IMG/VR virus record: IMGVR_UViG_3300027721_000068
Location: 1-25,241 of that record
DNA length: 25,241 bases
DNA from: a virus
Direction: 5' to 3' (one strand)
Shown: piece by piece, positions 6,646 to 19,109 of the stretch
Position numbering within the stretch: position 1 is the stretch's first letter
Layout of the letters: each line of letters begins with the position of its first letter
Program-made: the position numbers and the translations under genes
The notes under the pieces: generated by a model
Databases searched by the model: none
Seen by the model: only the letters and a program-made list of their open reading frames with translations
Told to the model about the DNA's origin: nothing

Positions 6646-6960
6646 TCACTTTCTCATCAATATCAGATAGGGTGTGACTCCCCTTAAATTATAGGTCTGT
6701 TCCAACCATATAGTCAGAATCTCCTTTGTTTGTGAGGTATTCAGACCAAAAATGTCTTCAAAAAATACCCAAATTCTGTCGTAATTTATATAAATAACCC
6801 CATTTTTTTCATCCTGGTAATAGTAAAATAACGGTTTTTGGTTATCATCAACATAATATGTTCTATCATGTTTAACTACCGGTGTAAGATCACCAAACTC
6901 CTTGTTTAACCAGTTTAGAACTAAACTATCTCTACTACTTTCAGTTATTATTATTTTCAT
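6646..6960 (-). CDS. Repeat-domain protein, copy 1, with MKIIITE leader
   Basis: A 104-residue paralogue of the genes at 6989 and 7307. It begins MKIIITESSRDSLVLNWLNK and continues through the shared domain: FGDLTPVV, then YYVDDNQKPLFYYYQD, KNGVIYINYDRIWVFFEDIFGL and ILTIWLEQTYNLRG. The domain is of alternating beta and alpha type with many aromatic residues, with no catalytic motif I recognise. The leader contains I-T-E (residues 5-7), the consensus cut by T4-type prohead protease, so the mature protein might begin at Ser8; that is inference. It has no promoter-like box of its own and is probably co-transcribed with the genes upstream. It is the last of three tandem copies. Function unknown. 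Confidence 0.7.
   Translation of the reverse strand: MKIIITESSRDSLVLNWLNKEFGDLTPVVKHDRTYYVDDNQKPLFYYYQDEKNGVIYINYDRIWVFFEDIFGLNTSQTKEILTIWLEQTYNLRGVTPYLILMRK
6684..6960 (-). repeat. Tandem repeat unit 1 (coding)
   Basis: Direct repeat of about 277 bp, one of five copies in the same orientation. Shared blocks include AAATTATAGGTCTGTTCCAAC (read on the plus strand) at one end and, in copies 1-3, an identical end covering the MKIIITESS codons. Confidence 0.8.
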
Positions 6961-6988: not shown

Positions 6989-7300
6989 TTATATCATACG
7001 AGACACAACTGGTGTGTGTCCCCCCAAATTATAGGTATCTTCCAACCATATACTGAGTATATCCCTTGTTTGTGAGTCATCTAACCCAAAAATGTTTTTA
7101 AAAAACGACCAAAGTCTTTCTCTATTTATAAACACAAACCCATTTTTAATATTATGACGATAGAAAAATAACGGTCTTAGGTCTCTATCAACATAAAATG
7201 TTTTATCACCTTTAACCTCCGGAGTTAAATCACCAAACTCTTTGTGTAACCACTTAAACACCAATCTGTCCCTACTACTTTCAGTTATTATTATTTTCAT
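6989..7300 (-). CDS. Repeat-domain protein, copy 2, with MKIIITE leader
   Basis: A 103-residue paralogue of the neighbours. It starts MKIIITESSRDRLVFKWLHK and has the same domain: FGDLTPEVKGDKTFYVD, RPLFFYRHN, KNGFVFINRERLWSFFKNIFGL and ILSIWLEDTYNLGG. It differs from copies 1 and 3 more than those differ from each other (for example Phe, His and Arg changes in the middle), so the copies are diverging at protein level while the leader stays identical. It sits 6 nt downstream of copy 3 and 28 nt upstream of copy 1, in one likely operon. Function unknown; its ITE site at residues 5-7 is a possible processing site. Confidence 0.7.
   Translation of the reverse strand: MKIIITESSRDRLVFKWLHKEFGDLTPEVKGDKTFYVDRDLRPLFFYRHNIKNGFVFINRERLWSFFKNIFGLDDSQTRDILSIWLEDTYNLGGHTPVVSRMI
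7026..7300 (-). repeat. Tandem repeat unit 2 (coding)
   Basis: Second direct copy of the ~275-bp unit. It is the most diverged of the three tandem copies in its central part, yet identical to the other two over the leader codons. Confidence 0.8.
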
Positions 7301-7306
7301 ATCATT

Positions 7307-7330
7307 TTAAATTATAGGTCTGTTCCAACA
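7307..7330 (-). repeat. Orphan repeat fragment forming the tail of copy 3
   Basis: A second isolated piece of the repeat 3' end, about 24 bp. It lies inside the C-terminus of the copy 3 gene and is read in a different frame there: the bases that encode L-E-Q-T-Y-N-L in other copies give W-N-R-P-I-I and a stop here. It is a recombination scar that has been recruited as a C-terminal tail. Confidence 0.65.
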
Positions 7331-7648
7331 GTGGTGGAAAGAGATTATTCCATTTTTTGGTGTGAGACCCTTTAAATTGTAGGTCTCCCCCAACCATACC
7401 TTCAGAATCTTTCGTGTTTGAGGGTCTTTCAGTCCAAAAATAGAATTAAAAAATACCCAAATTCTGTCGTAATCTATATAAACAACCCCATTTTTTTCAT
7501 CCTGGTTATAGTAAAATAATGGTTCTCTGTCCTCATCAACATAATATGTTTTATCACCTCTAACCACCGAAGTAAGATCGCCAAACTCTCTGTTTAACCA
7601 TTTTAAAACCAACCTGTCCCTACTACTTTCAGTTATTATTATTTTCAT
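7307..7648 (-). CDS. Repeat-domain protein, copy 3, with MKIIITE leader
   Basis: A 113-residue paralogue, first of the three tandem genes. It starts MKIIITESSRDRLVLKWLNR and contains FGDLTSVVRGDKTYYVD, EPLFYYNQDEKNGVVYIDYD, RIWVFFNSIFGL and ILKVWLGETYNLKGLTP. It ends in an extra tail, ISFHHCWNRPII, produced by out-of-frame reading of a leftover repeat fragment. It begins 11 nt downstream of the large multidomain gene, whose third domain is another copy of the same module, so the two are likely co-transcribed. No catalytic motif is recognised. As in the other copies, I-T-E at residues 5-7 could be a prohead-protease type site. Confidence 0.7.
   Translation of the reverse strand: MKIIITESSRDRLVLKWLNREFGDLTSVVRGDKTYYVDEDREPLFYYNQDEKNGVVYIDYDRIWVFFNSIFGLKDPQTRKILKVWLGETYNLKGLTPKNGIISFHHCWNRPII
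7372..7648 (-). repeat. Tandem repeat unit 3 (coding)
   Basis: Third direct copy, closest in sequence to unit 1: long runs of shared bases, including the segment around the codons for RIWVFF and the last 29 bp at the gene start. Confidence 0.8.
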
Positions 7649-7659
7649 ATCATTTTATA

Positions 7660-10122
7660 TTAATTAATAAGTTGATATAACTCTTTATTGTAAAACTTAA
7701 GCCTTTCAGTAATATATTCAGAATCACCAAGTTCTCCTAATTTATCTTTATAATATTGTATTCTTTCTTTATAATAATATATTTCGTTTTCTTTATTCCT
7801 TGCAAGTTTTGGTTTAGCATCAATCTTTTCTGTTTCAATATGTACCTCAAACTCCATATTTGTATAAATTGGATTTTCATAATAATATACAAAAAACTTA
7901 GGGAATGTCGTTGGGTTTGCCACAGTTTGTATTCTTGAGTAATCGTTTCTAAACATTATGTATTTATTCTTAGGTCTATCAACGTAAAGAATAATATCAA
8001 CATTAGATTCTTTATATTTATTGTGATTATGCCAAGAAGGAACTTTATAATAATACCCTCTTTCGGATCCAAATTTTTCAATCAACGAATAATCAACCGG
8101 TTTAACTTGCACAAAATAAGAAGTCCCATCAATTATCACATCAAAATCTTGACCTAATTTTCTATCCCTAACATCACCAGCACATCTTTCTATAATATTC
8201 CAAGTAAGACCTTCTTCATCAGGGTTTAATTTAAATTTGTTTATTATAACTGTTTTTGCATAACTTTCATTTTCTCTACCAGTTAAAATAGTGTTTTTAT
8301 TTATATCAACCAATCTTTCGGTAAATCTACCTTTGTCACCTACTAGTTCTCCAATGTTGTTTATAATCCATTTTCTAAAATTTTCCGTAGAACCAGTCTC
8401 CTCAGACCAAATTTTTTGAATTTCTTTATGTACCGAACTATTTGTATCAAATCTGTTTATGATTGACCAATTACCATTACCACCATAATTTTGTTCCGAA
8501 TATTTACCACCAATAATTCCCACATCAGTTTTACATTGTTCTGTTTCAATTTTCCCTAAACAACCGTTTGTGTATTTTAAACCTTCACATTTAGGGTAAG
8601 CATTGTTTATTAAACTTCTAAAAGATTTTGAGGTTAATGGGAAGACTTCTTTATTTTCAGATAAAATAAAATGTTCGTTAATTGTTTCTGAATTATAGTT
8701 CTCATCCAATGGGTCGAATTTAATTCTTGAAAAATCAACGGGTGTGAAGTCCCTCAAATTATAGGTCTCATCCAACCATACATTTAGGATATCCTTTATT
8801 TGTAAATTATTTAGACCAAAAATGTTTTCAAAAAATACCCAAATTCTTTTGTAATTTATATATATATAACCAGTTGTTGAACCATTATGATAATAGTAAA
8901 ATAATGGTAATCTGTCTTTATTAACATAAAATGTTTTATCATCTTTAACCACCGGAGTTAAATCACCAAATTTCTTGTTTAACCATTTTAATGCTGATTT
9001 TTCCTTATGATCAACCGATTCATTAATTGTTTCTTTTTTGTTTGTTTTTAAATTAAAAAGATCGTTAACGAATTCCCAATTAATGTGGTTCCAAAATTTA
9101 TTAATATATTGGTCTCGTTTATTTTTATATCTTAAATAATATGCGTGTTCCCAAAGATCTAACCCAAGTATTGGATATCCCCCATTAACATCATTCATTA
9201 ATGGGTTATCTTGGTTTGGTGTTGTAATAATTTTTAATCTATTAGTTTTTGTTAAAACCAACCATACCCAACCTGAACCAAAACTATCCAAGGCGGCCTT
9301 ATTAAATTCTTCTTTAAAATTTTTAAATGATTTGTATTGGTTTGTTATTTTATCTAAAAGATCCCCTTTTAAAGTTTGTTTTTTTGGTGATAACATTTTC
9401 CAAAACAATGCGTGATTAAATGCACCACCAGCATTATTTCTAACCTTTGTATTAAATTTAGTGATTGTTTTAATAATATCCTCAAGTTCTATATCACCTT
9501 TTCTACTTGATAAGGCATCATTTAATTTTTTAACATAACCTTTATAATGTTTGTTATAATGAACATCCATTGTTTCAGGATCAACAAATTGTTTTAATGC
9601 CGAATATGAATAGGGTAATTTCTCAATACCAATTTTTTTCATTTCGGTAATGAATTCTTTTTGAATGTTAATTTTATCTAATAATACGATTTGTTCTGTT
9701 AAGATATCAATTCTATTTGAAATGGGTTTTAACCCCTCATAAACAATATTAACCATTTCGGGGTGTTCCTTTTCAAACATTTTAATTAATCGTCCAGCAC
9801 CAGCATTTGCCTCATCCTCATTTTTTCCACCAATATCTTGGCCAATTTCCCGTTTTAATATGGTCATTTGATGTTCGTGAATCCATTCGTGAGCAAGGGT
9901 TCTTAAGATATCTCGGTTCAACCGACCTTTAGTTAATATTTTAATACCAAACTCATCACTTCTACTACCAGTCGTCATTTGACCTGTGCGATCACCCAAG
10001 AAAGAAACTAAAATGTCGTCCTTTAATGGGTATTTATCATTTAAAAACTTAATAAATTTTTTGGCAAGATCCTTACTTTCTTGGGACATTGAGCATTTAA
10101 TATGTTTAATAGATACTTTCAT
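7660..10122 (-). CDS. Multidomain protein: HExxH peptidase-like, Fe/Mn SOD, repeat domain, PD-(D/E)XK-like nuclease
   Basis: An 820-residue fusion. Residues 1-130 form a zinc-peptidase-like domain with LAHEWIHEHQ (H78, E79, H82) and downstream acidic NEDEANAGAG (E102/E104). Residues ~167-355 are a complete Fe/Mn superoxide dismutase: LPYSY start, ligands H188 (VHYNKH), H237 (NHALFW), D322 and H326 (DLWEHAYY), gateway Y196. NNAGGAFNH and PNQDNPLM are closer to the Mn than the Fe type. Residues ~377-460 repeat the module of the neighbouring small genes. Residues ~610-720 resemble a PD-(D/E)XK nuclease: E617/E619, GQDFDVIIDG (D659/D661), VQVKP (Q672, K674). Residues ~490-610 are unassigned. [I/L]-x-E sites lie in each linker (141-143, 158-160, 366-368, 481-483, 487-489). 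The box upstream ends only 4 nt before this ATG; Met12 is an alternative start. Confidence 0.8.
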   Translation of the reverse strand: MKVSIKHIKCSMSQESKDLAKKFIKFLNDKYPLKDDILVSFLGDRTGQMTTGSRSDEFGIKILTKGRLNRDILRTLAHEWIHEHQMTILKREIGQDIGGKNEDEANAGAGRLIKMFEKEHPEMVNIVYEGLKPISNRIDILTEQIVLLDKINIQKEFITEMKKIGIEKLPYSYSALKQFVDPETMDVHYNKHYKGYVKKLNDALSSRKGDIELEDIIKTITKFNTKVRNNAGGAFNHALFWKMLSPKKQTLKGDLLDKITNQYKSFKNFKEEFNKAALDSFGSGWVWLVLTKTNRLKIITTPNQDNPLMNDVNGGYPILGLDLWEHAYYLRYKNKRDQYINKFWNHINWEFVNDLFNLKTNKKETINESVDHKEKSALKWLNKKFGDLTPVVKDDKTFYVNKDRLPLFYYYHNGSTTGYIYINYKRIWVFFENIFGLNNLQIKDILNVWLDETYNLRDFTPVDFSRIKFDPLDENYNSETINEHFILSENKEVFPLTSKSFRSLINNAYPKCEGLKYTNGCLGKIETEQCKTDVGIIGGKYSEQNYGGNGNWSIINRFDTNSSVHKEIQKIWSEETGSTENFRKWIINNIGELVGDKGRFTERLVDINKNTILTGRENESYAKTVIINKFKLNPDEEGLTWNIIERCAGDVRDRKLGQDFDVIIDGTSYFVQVKPVDYSLIEKFGSERGYYYKVPSWHNHNKYKESNVDIILYVDRPKNKYIMFRNDYSRIQTVANPTTFPKFFVYYYENPIYTNMEFEVHIETEKIDAKPKLARNKENEIYYYKERIQYYKDKLGELGDSEYITERLKFYNKELYQLIN
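8756..8994 (-). repeat. Repeat unit 4, embedded in the multidomain gene
   Basis: Same unit as in the tandem genes but without the MKIIITESS end. It encodes the third domain of the 820-residue protein. A few codons are inserted around the YYHNGSTTGY segment relative to the others. Confidence 0.75.
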
Positions 10123-10154: not shown

Positions 10155-10607
10155 TCATAATGGTTTAAGTGGGGGTAAATCATCTAACATCTTCATCATT
10201 AAGTCCGCCATATAAGTTACCCCAAAATCCCTTAAATTATAGGTCTGTTCCAACCATACCTTCAGTATCTCCTGTGTTTGCAAGTCTTTCAGACCAAAAA
10301 TGGATTCAAAAAATACCCAAATTTTTTCGTAATTTACAAAAATTGTTGTGTCATCAAAAGTTGTTGTGTCATCCTTACCATACATAAGTAACGGAAATTT
10401 GTTTTCATCAACATAATATATCTTATCATCAATAACCATCTTAATTAAATTACCAAACCCCTTGTTTAACCATTTTAATGCAATTTCAGATATAGTAGAC
10501 CCAACACGACCATCATTACCTAACGCCTGAAGCTCTCTATAAGTAATTTCATTAAGACCCATAACACCATTAATTCTATTTATGTTAGAGATTAAAATCT
10601 TATCCAT
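10155..10607 (-). CDS. Repeat-domain protein, diverged copy 5, with longer N-terminus
   Basis: A 150-residue protein whose C-terminal two thirds are the shared module: ALKWLNKGFGNLIKMVIDDK, YYVDENKFPLLMYGKDD, VNYEKIWVFFESIFGL and ILKVWLEQTYNLRDF. An extra DDTTTFDDTT stretch sits in the middle. The N-terminus is not the MKIIITESS leader, but I-S-E (residues 39-41) lies directly before ALKWLN and L-N-E at 18-20. I chose ATG 10607 over the in-frame ATG at 10637, because the longer form would be encoded by the promoter-like box GTATTTATG itself (10622-10630). It lies between the helicase and multidomain genes, each with its own box. Function unknown. Confidence 0.65.
   Translation of the reverse strand: MDKILISNINRINGVMGLNEITYRELQALGNDGRVGSTISEIALKWLNKGFGNLIKMVIDDKIYYVDENKFPLLMYGKDDTTTFDDTTIFVNYEKIWVFFESIFGLKDLQTQEILKVWLEQTYNLRDFGVTYMADLMMKMLDDLPPLKPL
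10232..10481 (-). repeat. Repeat unit 5 (coding, diverged)
   Basis: Most diverged copy, in the same orientation, sharing the AAATTATAGGTCTGTTCCAAC end and the block encoding KIWVFFESIFGL. Confidence 0.75.
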
Positions 10608-10621
10608 ATTAAATGTTTTAA

Positions 10622-10630
10622 CATAAATAC
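10622..10630 (-). promoter_or_regulatory. Promoter-like box before repeat protein 5
   Basis: Minus strand GTATTTATG followed by TTAAAACA, 14 nt before the ATG at 10607. It decides the start codon of that gene. Confidence 0.45.
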
Positions 10631-10646
10631 TAAACAATCTATTCTT

Positions 10647-14317: not shown

Positions 14318-17300
14318 ATGGCAACTAACAGTAAAGTATTTGTATCACCAGGTGTATATACTTCAGAAGTAGACTTAAGTTTCGTTGCACAAAGCGTTGG
14401 TGTTACCACTTTAGGTATTGTGGGAGAGACTTTAAAAGGACCTGCTTTCGAACCAATCTTTATCAGAAACTTTGATGAATTTACTGCATTTTTTGGTGGA
14501 ACATCTGCTGAGAAATTCGTAAATACTCAAATCCCTAAATATGAAGCGGCTTACATCGCAAAATCATATTTACAACAATCTAACCAATTATTCGTAACAA
14601 GAGTATTGGGATTATCAGGTTATGATGCAGGACCATCTTGGTCTATCGTAACTGTGGCAAACGTTGATCCAACAACAATCGGATTTGATTGTGCTAGTGG
14701 TGTAACGGTTGATTGTTTATTTGAATGTACATCAGCAAACACTGTTGATATCCTTGTTGATTTTACGGGATGTACAAACAACATATCATCTGTAGGATTT
14801 ACAAGTAACTTCCCAAGTCAAATTCAATCAATCTTAAATAATTCTTACCAACAATTTAATGGTGGGACATCAACTTTAAATGATGATATAACAGGAACAA
14901 TTTATGATATCATCACATTAGATATTCCTTCTTCAGGTCAAACAGTTATTGATTATTTCGGTTCTATTGATACTGATGATTATAATGTTTTACACCCAAT
15001 TTTTTCTGCGGGAACTGAGAATAACAATTTTAGTGTTCCTTCAGTCTCTTTAGATGCAACTAATCTTGAATCACCATTAAATGATTCTTGGTATTATGCA
15101 TTATTTGATAATACAGGAAATGGTAATTATACAGGTTTCTCATTCTATTCTTATGTGACGGGAACAACTGCCACATCAACATCAAGTAATTGTGCATCAT
15201 TTAACTCACTTAGTGTTGGAGGATCGGTTACTTCATTTGATCCTATTGTTTCAGGAGGTACAGGATATACCGCATCAACAAATCTAACAACAACAACAAT
15301 CACAGGTGTAGGTGCGGGATTAACCGTTGATATAGAGGTTGATGGTGCGAATGTTGTTACGGGAGTAACAGTTAATTGTGAAGGTAGTGGTTATCAAGTA
15401 GGTGATACTGTCCTAATTTCACAATTAACTTCTAACAATGATGCTTATGTTGTTGTTGGTATTGTTGGCGCAACTACTAACGGTATCATTAATTATAATA
15501 CAAACACAATAAACGTATGTTTACCATCTGGGACATCAACTTGTGTGTTATCTACGTTGGTTCCTACATTCAGCGCATGTACGAGTGGTGTTAGCGTTAA
15601 TTCGGTAATACAATCAAGTGGTGGGACATCAAATGATTTTTCATCAGGTTCTGTAACATATATATTAACATCTGAAGATAGTACTTTAACAACAACTTGG
15701 ACGGTTAATGTTCAAATAAATGATCCTTGTAATCCTTGTTCTTTCGCTAGTGGTGGAACACAAAATACAGGAGAAATAACAACTTGTTATTCAGGTCAAG
15801 TAGTAGGTAAATTATATCTATATACAGGTAATTCATTTACTGACTATGATGATATGGTAGTTGGAACATTAAGATCAAGAGGTATTTCTGATTATGTTGA
15901 TGGTACAAACCCAACATATGAAATAACAGGAGTTACTGATGTAACACTTGACATGACAGGACCTTATTCAGGTGTTGCTAAAAATCCTTATATGTCGTTC
16001 GTTATTAATGCGACAAATTATGAAGGAACTAATTATTCGTTTGAAACTTCTTTCACCGCGAGTGATGCTAAATACATACCTAAAGTGTTCGGAACTTCCA
16101 ATTTCGGAAAACCAAGAAATGTTGTTCCATTAATGTTGGAAGAAAGATTCCAAAACTTGTTAAATTATGCATACAAGAAAGGGTACATTAGAGGTTTAAG
16201 TAATAACCTAATTTCTTTGAATTCTGCTCAAAGTGAAGATTCAAATTCAATTGGGTGGTACTTGGATAGATACCAATCACCAAGTTCTCCTTGGGTTGTA
16301 TCTGAATTAAGAGGTACTAAAATTTATAACTTATTTAAGTTCTATACGATATCAGATGGTAATACTGCAAATACTGAAGTTAAAATATCTATTTCTGATA
16401 TCTCATTTGCAAATCAAACATTTACAGTATTGGTTCGTGATTATTTTGATAATGATTCGGCACCTACAGTATTGGAGAAATTCACAAACTGTACGTTAGA
16501 TCCAAGTCAAAATAACTTTATTGCAAAGAAGATTGGAACACTTGACGGTGAATATGAGTTGAATTCTAAATATGTTATGATTGAAATGAACGAAGATGCT
16601 CCGGTAGATGCGTTACCTTGTGGATTTGAAGGATTTAACTTTAGAGAGTATTCAGGAGCAATTCCTCCATTCCCAATTTATAAAACAAAATATGATTTCC
16701 CAGGTGAAGTAATTTATAACCCACCATTCGGTTTACCTACAGGTGGAGACAATTCCACTACAACAGGTGGTGATAACATAAGAAGAACTTATCTTGGTAT
16801 GTCAAATTTCTGGGGTTATGATAGTAACTTCTTTGAATATAAAGGTAAAAGAAACCCAATTTCATCTTGTAATTTAGAAGGTGGTGAGTGGTCTTACAGA
16901 ACAAAAGGTTACCATATGGATAAAAACGCAAGTGGTCTTACGATCTCAAGTGCGTTTGCTACAAGTGGAACACCAAGATTCTTTGTTGGGGACGCACCGT
17001 TTGCATCTGAACCAACAAGTGAGTTAAGTCCTTACTACAGAATATTCTCAAGAAAATTCACTTTGTTTGTACAAGGAGGATTTGACGGATGGGATATCTA
17101 TAGAGAATTTAGAACTAACGGTGATAAATATGTTTTAGGTAGAATAGGATTCCTTAACGGGGCTTGTCCTACAGATAGATACCCAACGGCATCTGGATGG
17201 GGAGCGTTTAAACAAATCTCTATTGGTGATGGAACTCGTACTTGGGCAAATACTGACTACTACGCATACTTGTTAGGTATTAGAACATTCTCTAACCCTG

Positions 17301-18142
17301 AAGCGGTTAATATCAATGTATTTGTTACTCCGGGTATTGATTATGTTAATAACTCTGATTTAGTTGAATCAGCAATTGATATGGTTGAAAACGAAAGAGC
17401 GGATTCATTGTATATCACAACAACACCTGATTACAACTTGTTCCTACCAACAACAACAGGTATTGACGGATTAATCTACCCACAAGAGGCGGTTGATAAT
17501 TTAGATACAACAGGTATTGATTCCAACTACACGGCAACTTACTATCCTTGGGTATTAACTCGTGATAGTGTTAACAACACACAAATCTACATTCCACCAA
17601 CGGCTGAGGTGACAAGAAACTTGGCATTAACTGATAATATCGCCTTCCCTTGGTTTGCAGCAGCGGGTTACACTCGTGGTATTGTAAATGCGGTTAAAGC
17701 ACGTAAGAAGTTGACTCAAGAAGATAGAGACACACTTTACCTTGGAAGACTTAACCCAATTGCAACCTTCTCTGATGTTGGTACAGTAATTTGGGGTAAT
17801 AAGACCCTTCAATCAAGAGAATCCGCACTTGATAGAATCAACGTAAGAAGATTGTTATTACAAGCACGTAAGTTGATATCTTCAGTTTCAGTTAGATTGT
17901 TGTTTGATCAAAATGACGAACAAGTAAGACAAGATTTCTTAAATGCGGTTAATCCAATTTTAGACTCTATTAGAAGAGACCGAGGTTTATATGATTTCCG
18001 AGTTACAGTTTCAAGTGATACTGCGGACTTAGACAGAAATCAAATGACGGGTAAGATTTATATCAAACCAACTCGTTCACTTGAATTTATAGATATTACA
18101 TTCTACATTACTCCAACAGGAGCATCGTTCGAAAATATCTAA
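14318..18142 (+). CDS. 18: Tail sheath protein (T4 gp18-like) with large insertion
   Basis: A 1274-residue sheath, roughly twice T4 gp18 (659). The N-terminus is typical: VSPGVYTSEVDLSF, then TLGIVGETLKGPAFEPI, and AKSYLQQSNQLFVTRVLGLSGYDAGPSW (73-107 region). Core sequence resumes near residue 510 (DDMVVGTLRSRG), then YIPKVFGT and the conserved C-terminal contraction domain, ending FVTVSSD-like segments (FRVTVSSDTADLDRN) and IDITFYITPTGASFE. In between, about 390 residues form a Ser/Thr/Gly/Asn-rich, Cys-containing beta-type insertion, including VSGGTGYTASTNLTTT and GSGYQVGDTVLIS, like adhesin or fibre repeat modules. The insertion probably decorates the outside of the sheath. It has its own promoter-like box and is followed by a strong terminator. 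Confidence 0.95.
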   Translation: MATNSKVFVSPGVYTSEVDLSFVAQSVGVTTLGIVGETLKGPAFEPIFIRNFDEFTAFFGGTSAEKFVNTQIPKYEAAYIAKSYLQQSNQLFVTRVLGLSGYDAGPSWSIVTVANVDPTTIGFDCASGVTVDCLFECTSANTVDILVDFTGCTNNISSVGFTSNFPSQIQSILNNSYQQFNGGTSTLNDDITGTIYDIITLDIPSSGQTVIDYFGSIDTDDYNVLHPIFSAGTENNNFSVPSVSLDATNLESPLNDSWYYALFDNTGNGNYTGFSFYSYVTGTTATSTSSNCASFNSLSVGGSVTSFDPIVSGGTGYTASTNLTTTTITGVGAGLTVDIEVDGANVVTGVTVNCEGSGYQVGDTVLISQLTSNNDAYVVVGIVGATTNGIINYNTNTINVCLPSGTSTCVLSTLVPTFSACTSGVSVNSVIQSSGGTSNDFSSGSVTYILTSEDSTLTTTWTVNVQINDPCNPCSFASGGTQNTGEITTCYSGQVVGKLYLYTGNSFTDYDDMVVGTLRSRGISDYVDGTNPTYEITGVTDVTLDMTGPYSGVAKNPYMSFVINATNYEGTNYSFETSFTASDAKYIPKVFGTSNFGKPRNVVPLMLEERFQNLLNYAYKKGYIRGLSNNLISLNSAQSEDSNSIGWYLDRYQSPSSPWVVSELRGTKIYNLFKFYTISDGNTANTEVKISISDISFANQTFTVLVRDYFDNDSAPTVLEKFTNCTLDPSQNNFIAKKIGTLDGEYELNSKYVMIEMNEDAPVDALPCGFEGFNFREYSGAIPPFPIYKTKYDFPGEVIYNPPFGLPTGGDNSTTTGGDNIRRTYLGMSNFWGYDSNFFEYKGKRNPISSCNLEGGEWSYRTKGYHMDKNASGLTISSAFATSGTPRFFVGDAPFASEPTSELSPYYRIFSRKFTLFVQGGFDGWDIYREFRTNGDKYVLGRIGFLNGACPTDRYPTASGWGAFKQISIGDGTRTWANTDYYAYLLGIRTFSNPEAVNINVFVTPGIDYVNNSDLVESAIDMVENERADSLYITTTPDYNLFLPTTTGIDGLIYPQEAVDNLDTTGIDSNYTATYYPWVLTRDSVNNTQIYIPPTAEVTRNLALTDNIAFPWFAAAGYTRGIVNAVKARKKLTQEDRDTLYLGRLNPIATFSDVGTVIWGNKTLQSRESALDRINVRRLLLQARKLISSVSVRLLFDQNDEQVRQDFLNAVNPILDSIRRDRGLYDFRVTVSSDTADLDRNQMTGKIYIKPTRSLEFIDITFYITPTGASFENI

Positions 18143-18188: not shown

Positions 18189-18195
18189 ATTTATA
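18188..18195 (+). promoter_or_regulatory. Promoter-like box overlapping the terminator T-run
   Basis: TATTTATA begins at the last T of the sheath terminator and ends 14 nt before ATG 18210, the same spacing as at 1305, 20706 and 22606. The earlier in-frame ATG at 18195 overlaps the box and is therefore unlikely to be the start. Confidence 0.45.
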
Positions 18196-18209
18196 TGATA
18201 TTTATTAAT

Positions 18210-19109
18210 ATGAATTATAAAATTTTAACCAGACAAATCATTACCGAAATGGTAAATGAAATAGAAGAAAAACAATATGGTTTAAAGTATTATGCTTTTG
18301 ATTGGGACGATAATCTAATGAAAATGCCAACACAAATTGTTCTAAAGAATGAAGAAGGTAATGAAGTTGGTATGTCAACTGAAGACTTTGCGGAATATAG
18401 AACCGAGATTGGAGAAAAACCATTTAACTATAATGGTGAGACTATTATTGGTTTTGGTAATGATCCGTTCAGATATTTTAGAACTGCGGGTGATCAAAAA
18501 TTCTTACGTGATATAGAAAATGCTCCATTAGTGAGAGGTCCTTGGATGGATTTTGTTGAGGCAGTTAACAACGGGTCAATTTTTTCAATCATTACCGCTA
18601 GAGGACATAATCCAAATACCCTTAAAAAAGGTGTTTATAAATTAATAATGATGGGTCGTGGTGGTTTAGATAAAGAACAACTAGTTGATAGTTTAAATAT
18701 TTATAGACAAAAAATGGGACTTAAACCAATGTCTGATGAAAATACCTTAATTAAAGATTATTTAGATAGATGTAAATTTTATCCGGTAAGTTTTGGTGAA
18801 GGATCTGCAACCAACCCTGAAGAAGGTAAAGTTCGGGCGATGGAAGAATTTATAAGTTATGTGAAAAGATTATCACTTAGATTACAGAAAAAAGAATATC
18901 AATTTGTAAATGATGTGAGTAATAAATTTGTTCCAGTTGCACCTATGGTAGGATTTTCAGATGATGATATAAGAAATGTTGATGTTATGAAAAAACATTT
19001 TGAAAAAGAACCAGATAATATATTAAGAACTTATCATACTAAAGATGATGAAAAAACTATGCTAGAGCAACTAATTAATAGAACAATATTAAAAATTAAG
19101 TCAAAGTAA
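18210..19109 (+). CDS. HAD-superfamily hydrolase between sheath and tube genes
   Basis: A 299-residue protein with a HAD (haloacid dehalogenase) core. Motif I is AFDWDDNLMKMPT (nucleophile D31, D33), motif II is SIITARGHNP (T129), and the acidic motif IV is VGFSDDDIRNVD (D251-D253). The large insert between motifs I and II is a cap-type region. Many HAD enzymes are phosphatases acting on nucleotides, sugars or nucleic acid ends; the substrate cannot be read here. It begins MNYKILTRQIITEMVNEIEE: the catalytic domain starts only at ~residue 25, and I-T-E at 11-13 resembles the MKIIITE leader of the minus-strand repeat proteins. Start 18210 is chosen over 18195 from the promoter-like box position. 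Its location between sheath and tube is unusual, since these are neighbours in T4. Confidence 0.8.
   Translation: MNYKILTRQIITEMVNEIEEKQYGLKYYAFDWDDNLMKMPTQIVLKNEEGNEVGMSTEDFAEYRTEIGEKPFNYNGETIIGFGNDPFRYFRTAGDQKFLRDIENAPLVRGPWMDFVEAVNNGSIFSIITARGHNPNTLKKGVYKLIMMGRGGLDKEQLVDSLNIYRQKMGLKPMSDENTLIKDYLDRCKFYPVSFGEGSATNPEEGKVRAMEEFISYVKRLSLRLQKKEYQFVNDVSNKFVPVAPMVGFSDDDIRNVDVMKKHFEKEPDNILRTYHTKDDEKTMLEQLINRTILKIKSK

Follow-up and report, generated by a model that had tools for sequence, protein, structure and literature searches.

How a metallopeptidase-like domain, a superoxide dismutase (SOD), a module also encoded by small neighbouring genes and a nuclease-like domain come to share one phage polypeptide, and whether that polypeptide acts as a single enzyme or as a string of enzymes meant for delivery, are the questions raised by a gene in a viral record from IMG/VR. 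The window (the whole stretch of 25,241 bases that was analysed) encodes a polymerase, a SNF2-type helicase and a head-tail adaptor-like protein as neighbours of this gene, and further ORFs near it look like tail genes when set beside those annotated in Flavobacterium phage immuto. The phage is probably large and T4-like, with a host among the Bacteroidota. Also in the window, at 14318-18142 on the plus strand, lies a 1274-aa tail-sheath-like protein with a long T/S/G-rich stretch; the immuto sheath has 709 aa.

Domains of the polyprotein

The initial annotation had described one continuous frame running through all four domains, and a single open frame of 820 codons is indeed what the minus strand holds. 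The gene and its domains are as follows.

7660..10122, minus strand: whole polyprotein gene, ATG start, 820 codons, 0 internal stops
9739..10122, minus strand: zincin-like (IrrE N-terminal-like) metallopeptidase domain, residues 1-128, from invariant residues, model and fold match
9877..9891, minus strand: HExxH site, residues 78-82, from invariance in relatives
9049..9636, minus strand: Fe/Mn superoxide dismutase, residues 163-358, from Pfam, ligands and solved relatives
8737..9003, minus strand: fused copy of the K module, residues 374-462, from likeness to neighbouring small genes
7663..8643, minus strand: C-terminal domain of type B, a probable PD-(D/E)XK nuclease, residues 494-820, from its motif and a separate model

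The SOD is the firmest of the assignments. Both Fe/Mn SOD halves were found by Pfam above cut-off within residues 167-354 (PF00081, E = 7.4e-21; PF02777, E = 4.1e-40), and the full ligand set of three His and one Asp that had been proposed (H188, H237, D322 and H326) is invariant in 42 relatives. Among proteins of known structure its closest relatives are SODs of the Mn or Mn/Fe kind (E about 1e-58), and the polyprotein SOD is presumably of the Mn type. Most of the bacterial proteins nearest to it come from Bacteroidota; at the loci of these relatives no zincin domain was found beside the SOD.

For the N-terminal domain, the HExxH site named earlier (H78, E79, H82) is present and invariant across 42 family members, and in 35 relatives H78-E79-x-x-H82 is invariant together with E102-D103-E104, all three of which are candidates for the downstream acidic ligand of a zincin. 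The domain was modelled with a pLDDT of about 87; its best fold match in BFVD is an unnamed phage protein of 127 residues (TMt 0.89), and it also matches a phage protein described as IrrE N-terminal-like (TMt 0.78). The metallopeptidase-like reading thus stands on fold and active site but not on a named family, as no Pfam family scored above cut-off: single members gave weak matches to SprT, BSP, M76 and M78, each below it, and a PDB profile search with the domain returned chance matches only.

The nuclease-like reading of the C-terminal domain is moderately supported. Its motif, E619...D659...Q672-V-K674, is invariant in 13 relatives, and modelled separately (pTM 0.63) the domain forms a helix followed by strands, so that the pattern E...D...(E/Q)xK is found on an alpha-beta-beta-beta core. 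The best PDB matches of the AlphaFold model are the homing endonuclease I-Ssp6803I (probability 0.96, E 0.02), SPARDA effectors and CinB, all of which we take to be PD-(D/E)XK enzymes, but none lies below E = 0.001. Pfam gave no match to the domain, a PDB profile search with it gave chance matches only, and a BFVD search with its model gave unnamed proteins only (E 0.004 or worse). Judged by motif and model, domain B is a probable PD-(D/E)XK nuclease.

Relatives and exchange of the C-terminal domain

Relatives of the whole protein were encoded in at least 134 viral contigs in a scan of viral contigs, of which 80 were kept, and the first, zincin-like domain was encoded in 448. We wrote their architectures in a one-letter code, with N for the zincin-like domain, S for the SOD, K for the module and B, C and D for three unrelated C-terminal domains. 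Among 97 distinct proteins, 36 were N-S (these end after the SOD or are cut off there), 17 N-S-B, 17 N-S-C, 13 N-S-D, 9 N-S-K, 3 N-S-K-B, 1 N-S-K-K-B and 1 N alone; one or two K modules thus occur in 13. The zincin and the SOD form a constant core, after which comes nothing, the K module, or an exchanged B, C or D tail. The claim that the combination is without precedent has to be narrowed accordingly, since zincin plus SOD is common in this phage group.

The three tails did not join in an all-against-all comparison. Invariant residues are E462...P480-x-D482...S492-C-K494 in domain C and D202...E225-x-K227 in domain D, and by a reading of these motifs C and D look PD-(D/E)XK-like too.

The narrowing also follows from a BFVD search, in which a phage protein of 501 residues, already named just 'superoxide dismutase', matches most of the model. 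A PHROGs scan found no match to the polyprotein, and in a search of a phage collection only its SOD part was matched, the stand-alone phage Fe/Mn SODs found including those of the Pseudomonas phage PA5oct group and of Vibrio phage 2.275.O. At one locus (L164, 3001-3420, plus strand) the zincin domain is a free-standing gene of 139 aa that ends just beyond the first linker residues; it adjoins a gene whose product has an SLT domain and a double I/L-x-E tag at its N-terminus.

A protease motif in linkers, module genes and capsid protein

The strongest clue, which the initial annotation had missed, is the short prohead-protease motif I/L-x-E: no linker lacks it, and the small genes nearby carry it at their N-termini. 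T4 gp21 cleaves after L/I-X-E (PMC9026906). We consider it probable, on sequence grounds, that the product of this gene is a head-cargo polyprotein of a T4-type phage, which would be cut by the prohead protease and whose enzymes would be injected with the DNA; the comparative evidence favours the earlier suggestion that the logic is one of delivery or of a polyprotein and not of a single enzyme. The motif-bearing features of the polyprotein are listed here.

9637..9738, minus strand: linker 1, a predicted cleavage linker, residues 129-162, from low pLDDT and site density
9694..9702, minus strand: predicted cut site L141-T-E143; column 141 is I/L only, column 142 unconstrained and column 143 E in 39 of 42
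9643..9651, minus strand: predicted cut site I158-T-E160, adjoining the SOD; column 160 is E in 42 of 42
9019..9027, minus strand: predicted cut site I366-N-E368, between SOD and module, from column pattern and low pLDDT
8656..8709, minus strand: linker with three motifs (L472-D-E474, I481-N-E483 and L487-S-E489), from sequence and low pLDDT

In the alignment of 42 sequences, column 158 is I or L except for a single V, and the residue at column 159 is unconstrained (T, M, L, N, V or A); columns 366-368 follow the same pattern as 141-143 and 158-160. The linkers between domains are predicted to be disordered, with model pLDDT below 50 over residues 129-138, 143-147 and 149-172 in the region of linker 1 and also over 362-378 and 451-492. 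At least one site is present in all 113 distinct linkers, which represent seven junction types. Linker 1 has 107 sites in 36 distinct linkers where shuffled sequences have 46 ± 5, and 9.9 sites per 100 residues as compared with 0.6-0.8 in the adjoining folded domains. At junctions after the SOD, every one of 46 linkers carries a site, with 92 sites in total against about 28 in shuffled linkers. In the count over all junction types the N-S linker has 209 sites against 117 ± 8 when shuffled, but this linker is rich in I, L and E and 59 of 67 shuffled versions also contain at least one site, so presence alone is weak evidence there and the weight lies on the number and position of the sites.

Could the linkers instead be flexible or helical spacers in an uncut multidomain enzyme that is produced while infection proceeds and acts in the cell, with the motif arising from amphipathic, Glu-rich helices? 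The model has a low-confidence helix over residues 131-163, and E129 (9736-9738) and K150 (9673-9675) are invariant in 42 relatives within an otherwise variable linker, a conservation that cutting does not explain and that, like the hydrophobic spacing, would fit a structural role; the spacing would also suit an amphipathic helix. Such spacers would not, however, account for the same motif in all the other junction types, whose sequences are unrelated, nor for an invariant E160 next to a freely varying middle residue, and the motif also stands at the starts of free-standing module genes and is unchanged in the fused copies. We regard this explanation as unlikely.

The module genes themselves bear on the origin of the linker sites. 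The earlier observation that the polyprotein contains a copy of a module found in nearby small genes was borne out, the identity of residues 375-463 to four nearby ORFs being 50-59%. In the starts given below, a slash marks the position after the glutamate of the motif.

7307..7648, minus strand: free-standing K module gene starting MKIIITE/SSRDRL, from module likeness
6989..7300, minus strand: free-standing K module gene starting MKIIITE/SSRDRL, from module likeness
6646..6960, minus strand: free-standing K module gene starting MKIIITE/SSRDSL, from module likeness
10155..10637, minus strand: K module gene of 160 aa with ...GSTISE/IALKWLN, from module likeness

Four free-standing copies at one locus amount to a local gene expansion. 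The module had no Pfam match in the copies scanned and none in the phage collection; the 160-aa gene had one weak PHROGs match (E 0.024). Free-standing copies run MKIIITE/SSRDRL..KWLN and fused copies ETINE/SVDHK..KWLN; in the fused form, ETINE/SVDHKEKSALKWLN, the motif lies about as far away as it does in free-standing copies. A second, related module type (IITE/NQSDKIN...KIFGG...) occurs at L010, 10001-12959, as three free-standing genes and one fused copy. Here the free-standing MKIIITE/NQSDKINHRIKSTVEKFGLENALKIFGG may be set against the fused KKNIITE/NQSDKINERVRSTVEKFGFENALKIFGG, and NQSDKIN follows the mark in both. Since free and fused module starts share the motif, fusion kept the tag at the junction, as would be expected if the tag were still needed there. 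The polyprotein's own N-terminus, read by sequence, has no I/L-x-E tag, unlike the free-standing module genes, and this speaks against the head-cargo reading.

The window, a 25-kb fragment, contains neither gp21 nor gp23; both are known from relatives, with Peptidase_S77 (gp21) and Gp23 genes, all above Pfam cut-offs, in 5 of 16 large relatives, including contigs of 290 kb and 144 kb. T4 gp23 loses 65 N-terminal residues (PMC9958956). In the relatives' capsid protein the sequence LINE/A ends at residue 60 in each of the four sequences read, which by analogy with T4 is the expected gp23 maturation site, and the I366-N-E368 motif of the polyprotein is the same as that in LINE/A. Flavobacterium phage immuto, among the nearest isolated phages by capsid protein, has genes of the same kinds, and the protein encoded immediately upstream of its protease has ..EHFIAE/A near its start.

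The capsid and module sites also weigh on a second alternative, in which the zincin-like domain, and not the prohead protease, would process the chain, making it a polyvalent protein as defined by Iyer et al. 2017. Zincin-like metallopeptidases have been proposed as processors of polyvalent proteins (PMC5512222), and the zincin-like domain is always N-terminal in this family. Against self-processing, free-standing modules that lack a zincin bear the same motif, which also stands at the expected maturation site of the capsid protein, and the domain matches no sequence family of phage processing zincins; we judge this alternative to be improbable. That the fusion arose by chance, by assembly or by missed stop codons is excluded to near certainty: the N-S-K-B order first noted here recurs in L006 and L007, and L009 has it with two modules (N-S-K-K-B). 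Other contigs carry this fusion at 90-100% identity, and many data sets contain related architectures, zincin plus SOD among them.

Tags of this kind extend to other genes of relatives. The 290-kb relative (G001) has 41-43 ORFs with an N-terminal double I/L-x-E (43 against 15 ± 4 when shuffled), many of them between 156 and 205 kb. In a second ORF set, enrichment of the double tag over shuffles reached z = 8.9 in this relative and 4.2 in immuto, with z = 2.0 in the 144-kb relative (G006) and 1.1 in control genes, mostly from Bacteroidota genomes; ORFs around the polyprotein in relatives showed no enrichment (z = -2.0). The signal is thus strong in one relative and moderate in immuto, and extension to the whole group goes beyond what the counts show. 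Tagged ORFs include M23 peptidases, a lysozyme and an AAT-like protein, with an SLT protein in another relative. The cluster of double-tagged ORFs at about 156-205 kb of G001 (loci L109-L111) has many members without a known family and has the look of a head-cargo island. In the window itself, at 18195-19109 on the plus strand, a protein of 304 aa contains FDWDDN, looks HAD-like by eye, has no Pfam match at E 0.01 and carries an N-terminal QIITE/M; a relative of it at L025 (1635-2474) has QIINE/I.

Proposed course of infection and comparison with known systems

From the domain order, active-site residues, motif-bearing linkers, tagged module genes and the gp21 and gp23 of relatives, we infer late expression, packaging, cutting, injection and a role for each enzyme. 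The head-cargo polyprotein would be made late in infection and built into the prohead core, where a gp21-type prohead protease would cut the linkers after I/L-x-E. The products within the head would be a zincin-like protease, a Mn-type SOD, the K module and a PD-(D/E)XK-like nuclease, and the freed proteins would enter the host together with the DNA. The SOD might then clear superoxide within minutes of the onset of infection, or might protect the packaged DNA; the zincin and the exchangeable C-terminal nucleases may have host regulators, defences or host DNA as their targets.

Several parts of this course have precedents: trimmed and injected head proteins are already known from T4, P1 and SPN3US, polyvalent proteins as a predicted class, and a virion-packaged SOD from a chlorovirus. 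The internal head proteins of T4 (IPI, IPII, IPIII and Alt) share with the present system the I/L-x-E cut motif and, through relatives of this phage, a gp21-type protease and gp23; short N-terminal tags ending in I/L-x-E, as on the T4 proteins, are found here on the free-standing module genes. They differ in being separate genes with a single N-terminal trim, whereas here sites lie between the members of an enzyme string, and in having the targeting tag at the N-terminus, where the polyprotein itself has none. P1 DarA/Hdf and the SPN3US ejection proteins are likewise head-packaged, cut by a prohead protease and ejected with DNA (PMC12810830; PMC7411985), but by removal of an N-terminal propeptide, and neither an SOD nor an enzyme string is described in the literature consulted.

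Polyvalent proteins of phages and conjugative elements, for which injection along with the DNA has been proposed (Iyer et al. 2017, PMC5512222), resemble the polyprotein in joining disparate enzyme domains and a zincin-like domain in one phage polypeptide, and at least two domains of disparate activity are indeed combined here. However, no SOD is mentioned in PMC5512222, where processing is ascribed to built-in zincins and not to a prohead-protease motif in linkers, and Pfam and PHROGs scans of the polyprotein gave no match among 131 catalogued polyvalent-protein families. As for SODs, that of chlorovirus PBCV-1 is encoded by the virus, is packaged into its particles and has been connected with reduced superoxide in infected cells (PMC7019647), but it is an unrelated Cu/Zn enzyme, a single protein, and belongs to an algal virus. 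The PA5oct group and 2.275.O do carry Fe/Mn SOD genes, although the matches are shorter, at 28-30% identity, and the SOD is not accompanied in the same place by a match to the zincin or the nuclease. The part of the literature covered contained no account of an SOD-bearing phage polyprotein, no paper with the term "phage-encoded superoxide dismutase", no account of prohead-protease motifs between enzyme domains, and no proteomics paper on Flavobacterium phage immuto.

A broader proposition is that large Bacteroidota T4-type phages use a general cargo code, with dozens of double-tagged enzymes that are here fused into protease-cut strings delivering SOD and exchangeable nucleases; the SOD would then be the first antioxidant enzyme that a bacteriophage is known to inject. 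On sequence evidence we judge the chances of this proposition to be evenly balanced. If true, phages would bring an SOD into bacteria at the start of infection, which would point to an oxidative response that phages must counter. There would also be a sequence rule for spotting head cargo among the unnamed genes of large Bacteroidota phages, and a route from separate cargo genes to one processed polyprotein whose last enzyme is swapped between lineages.
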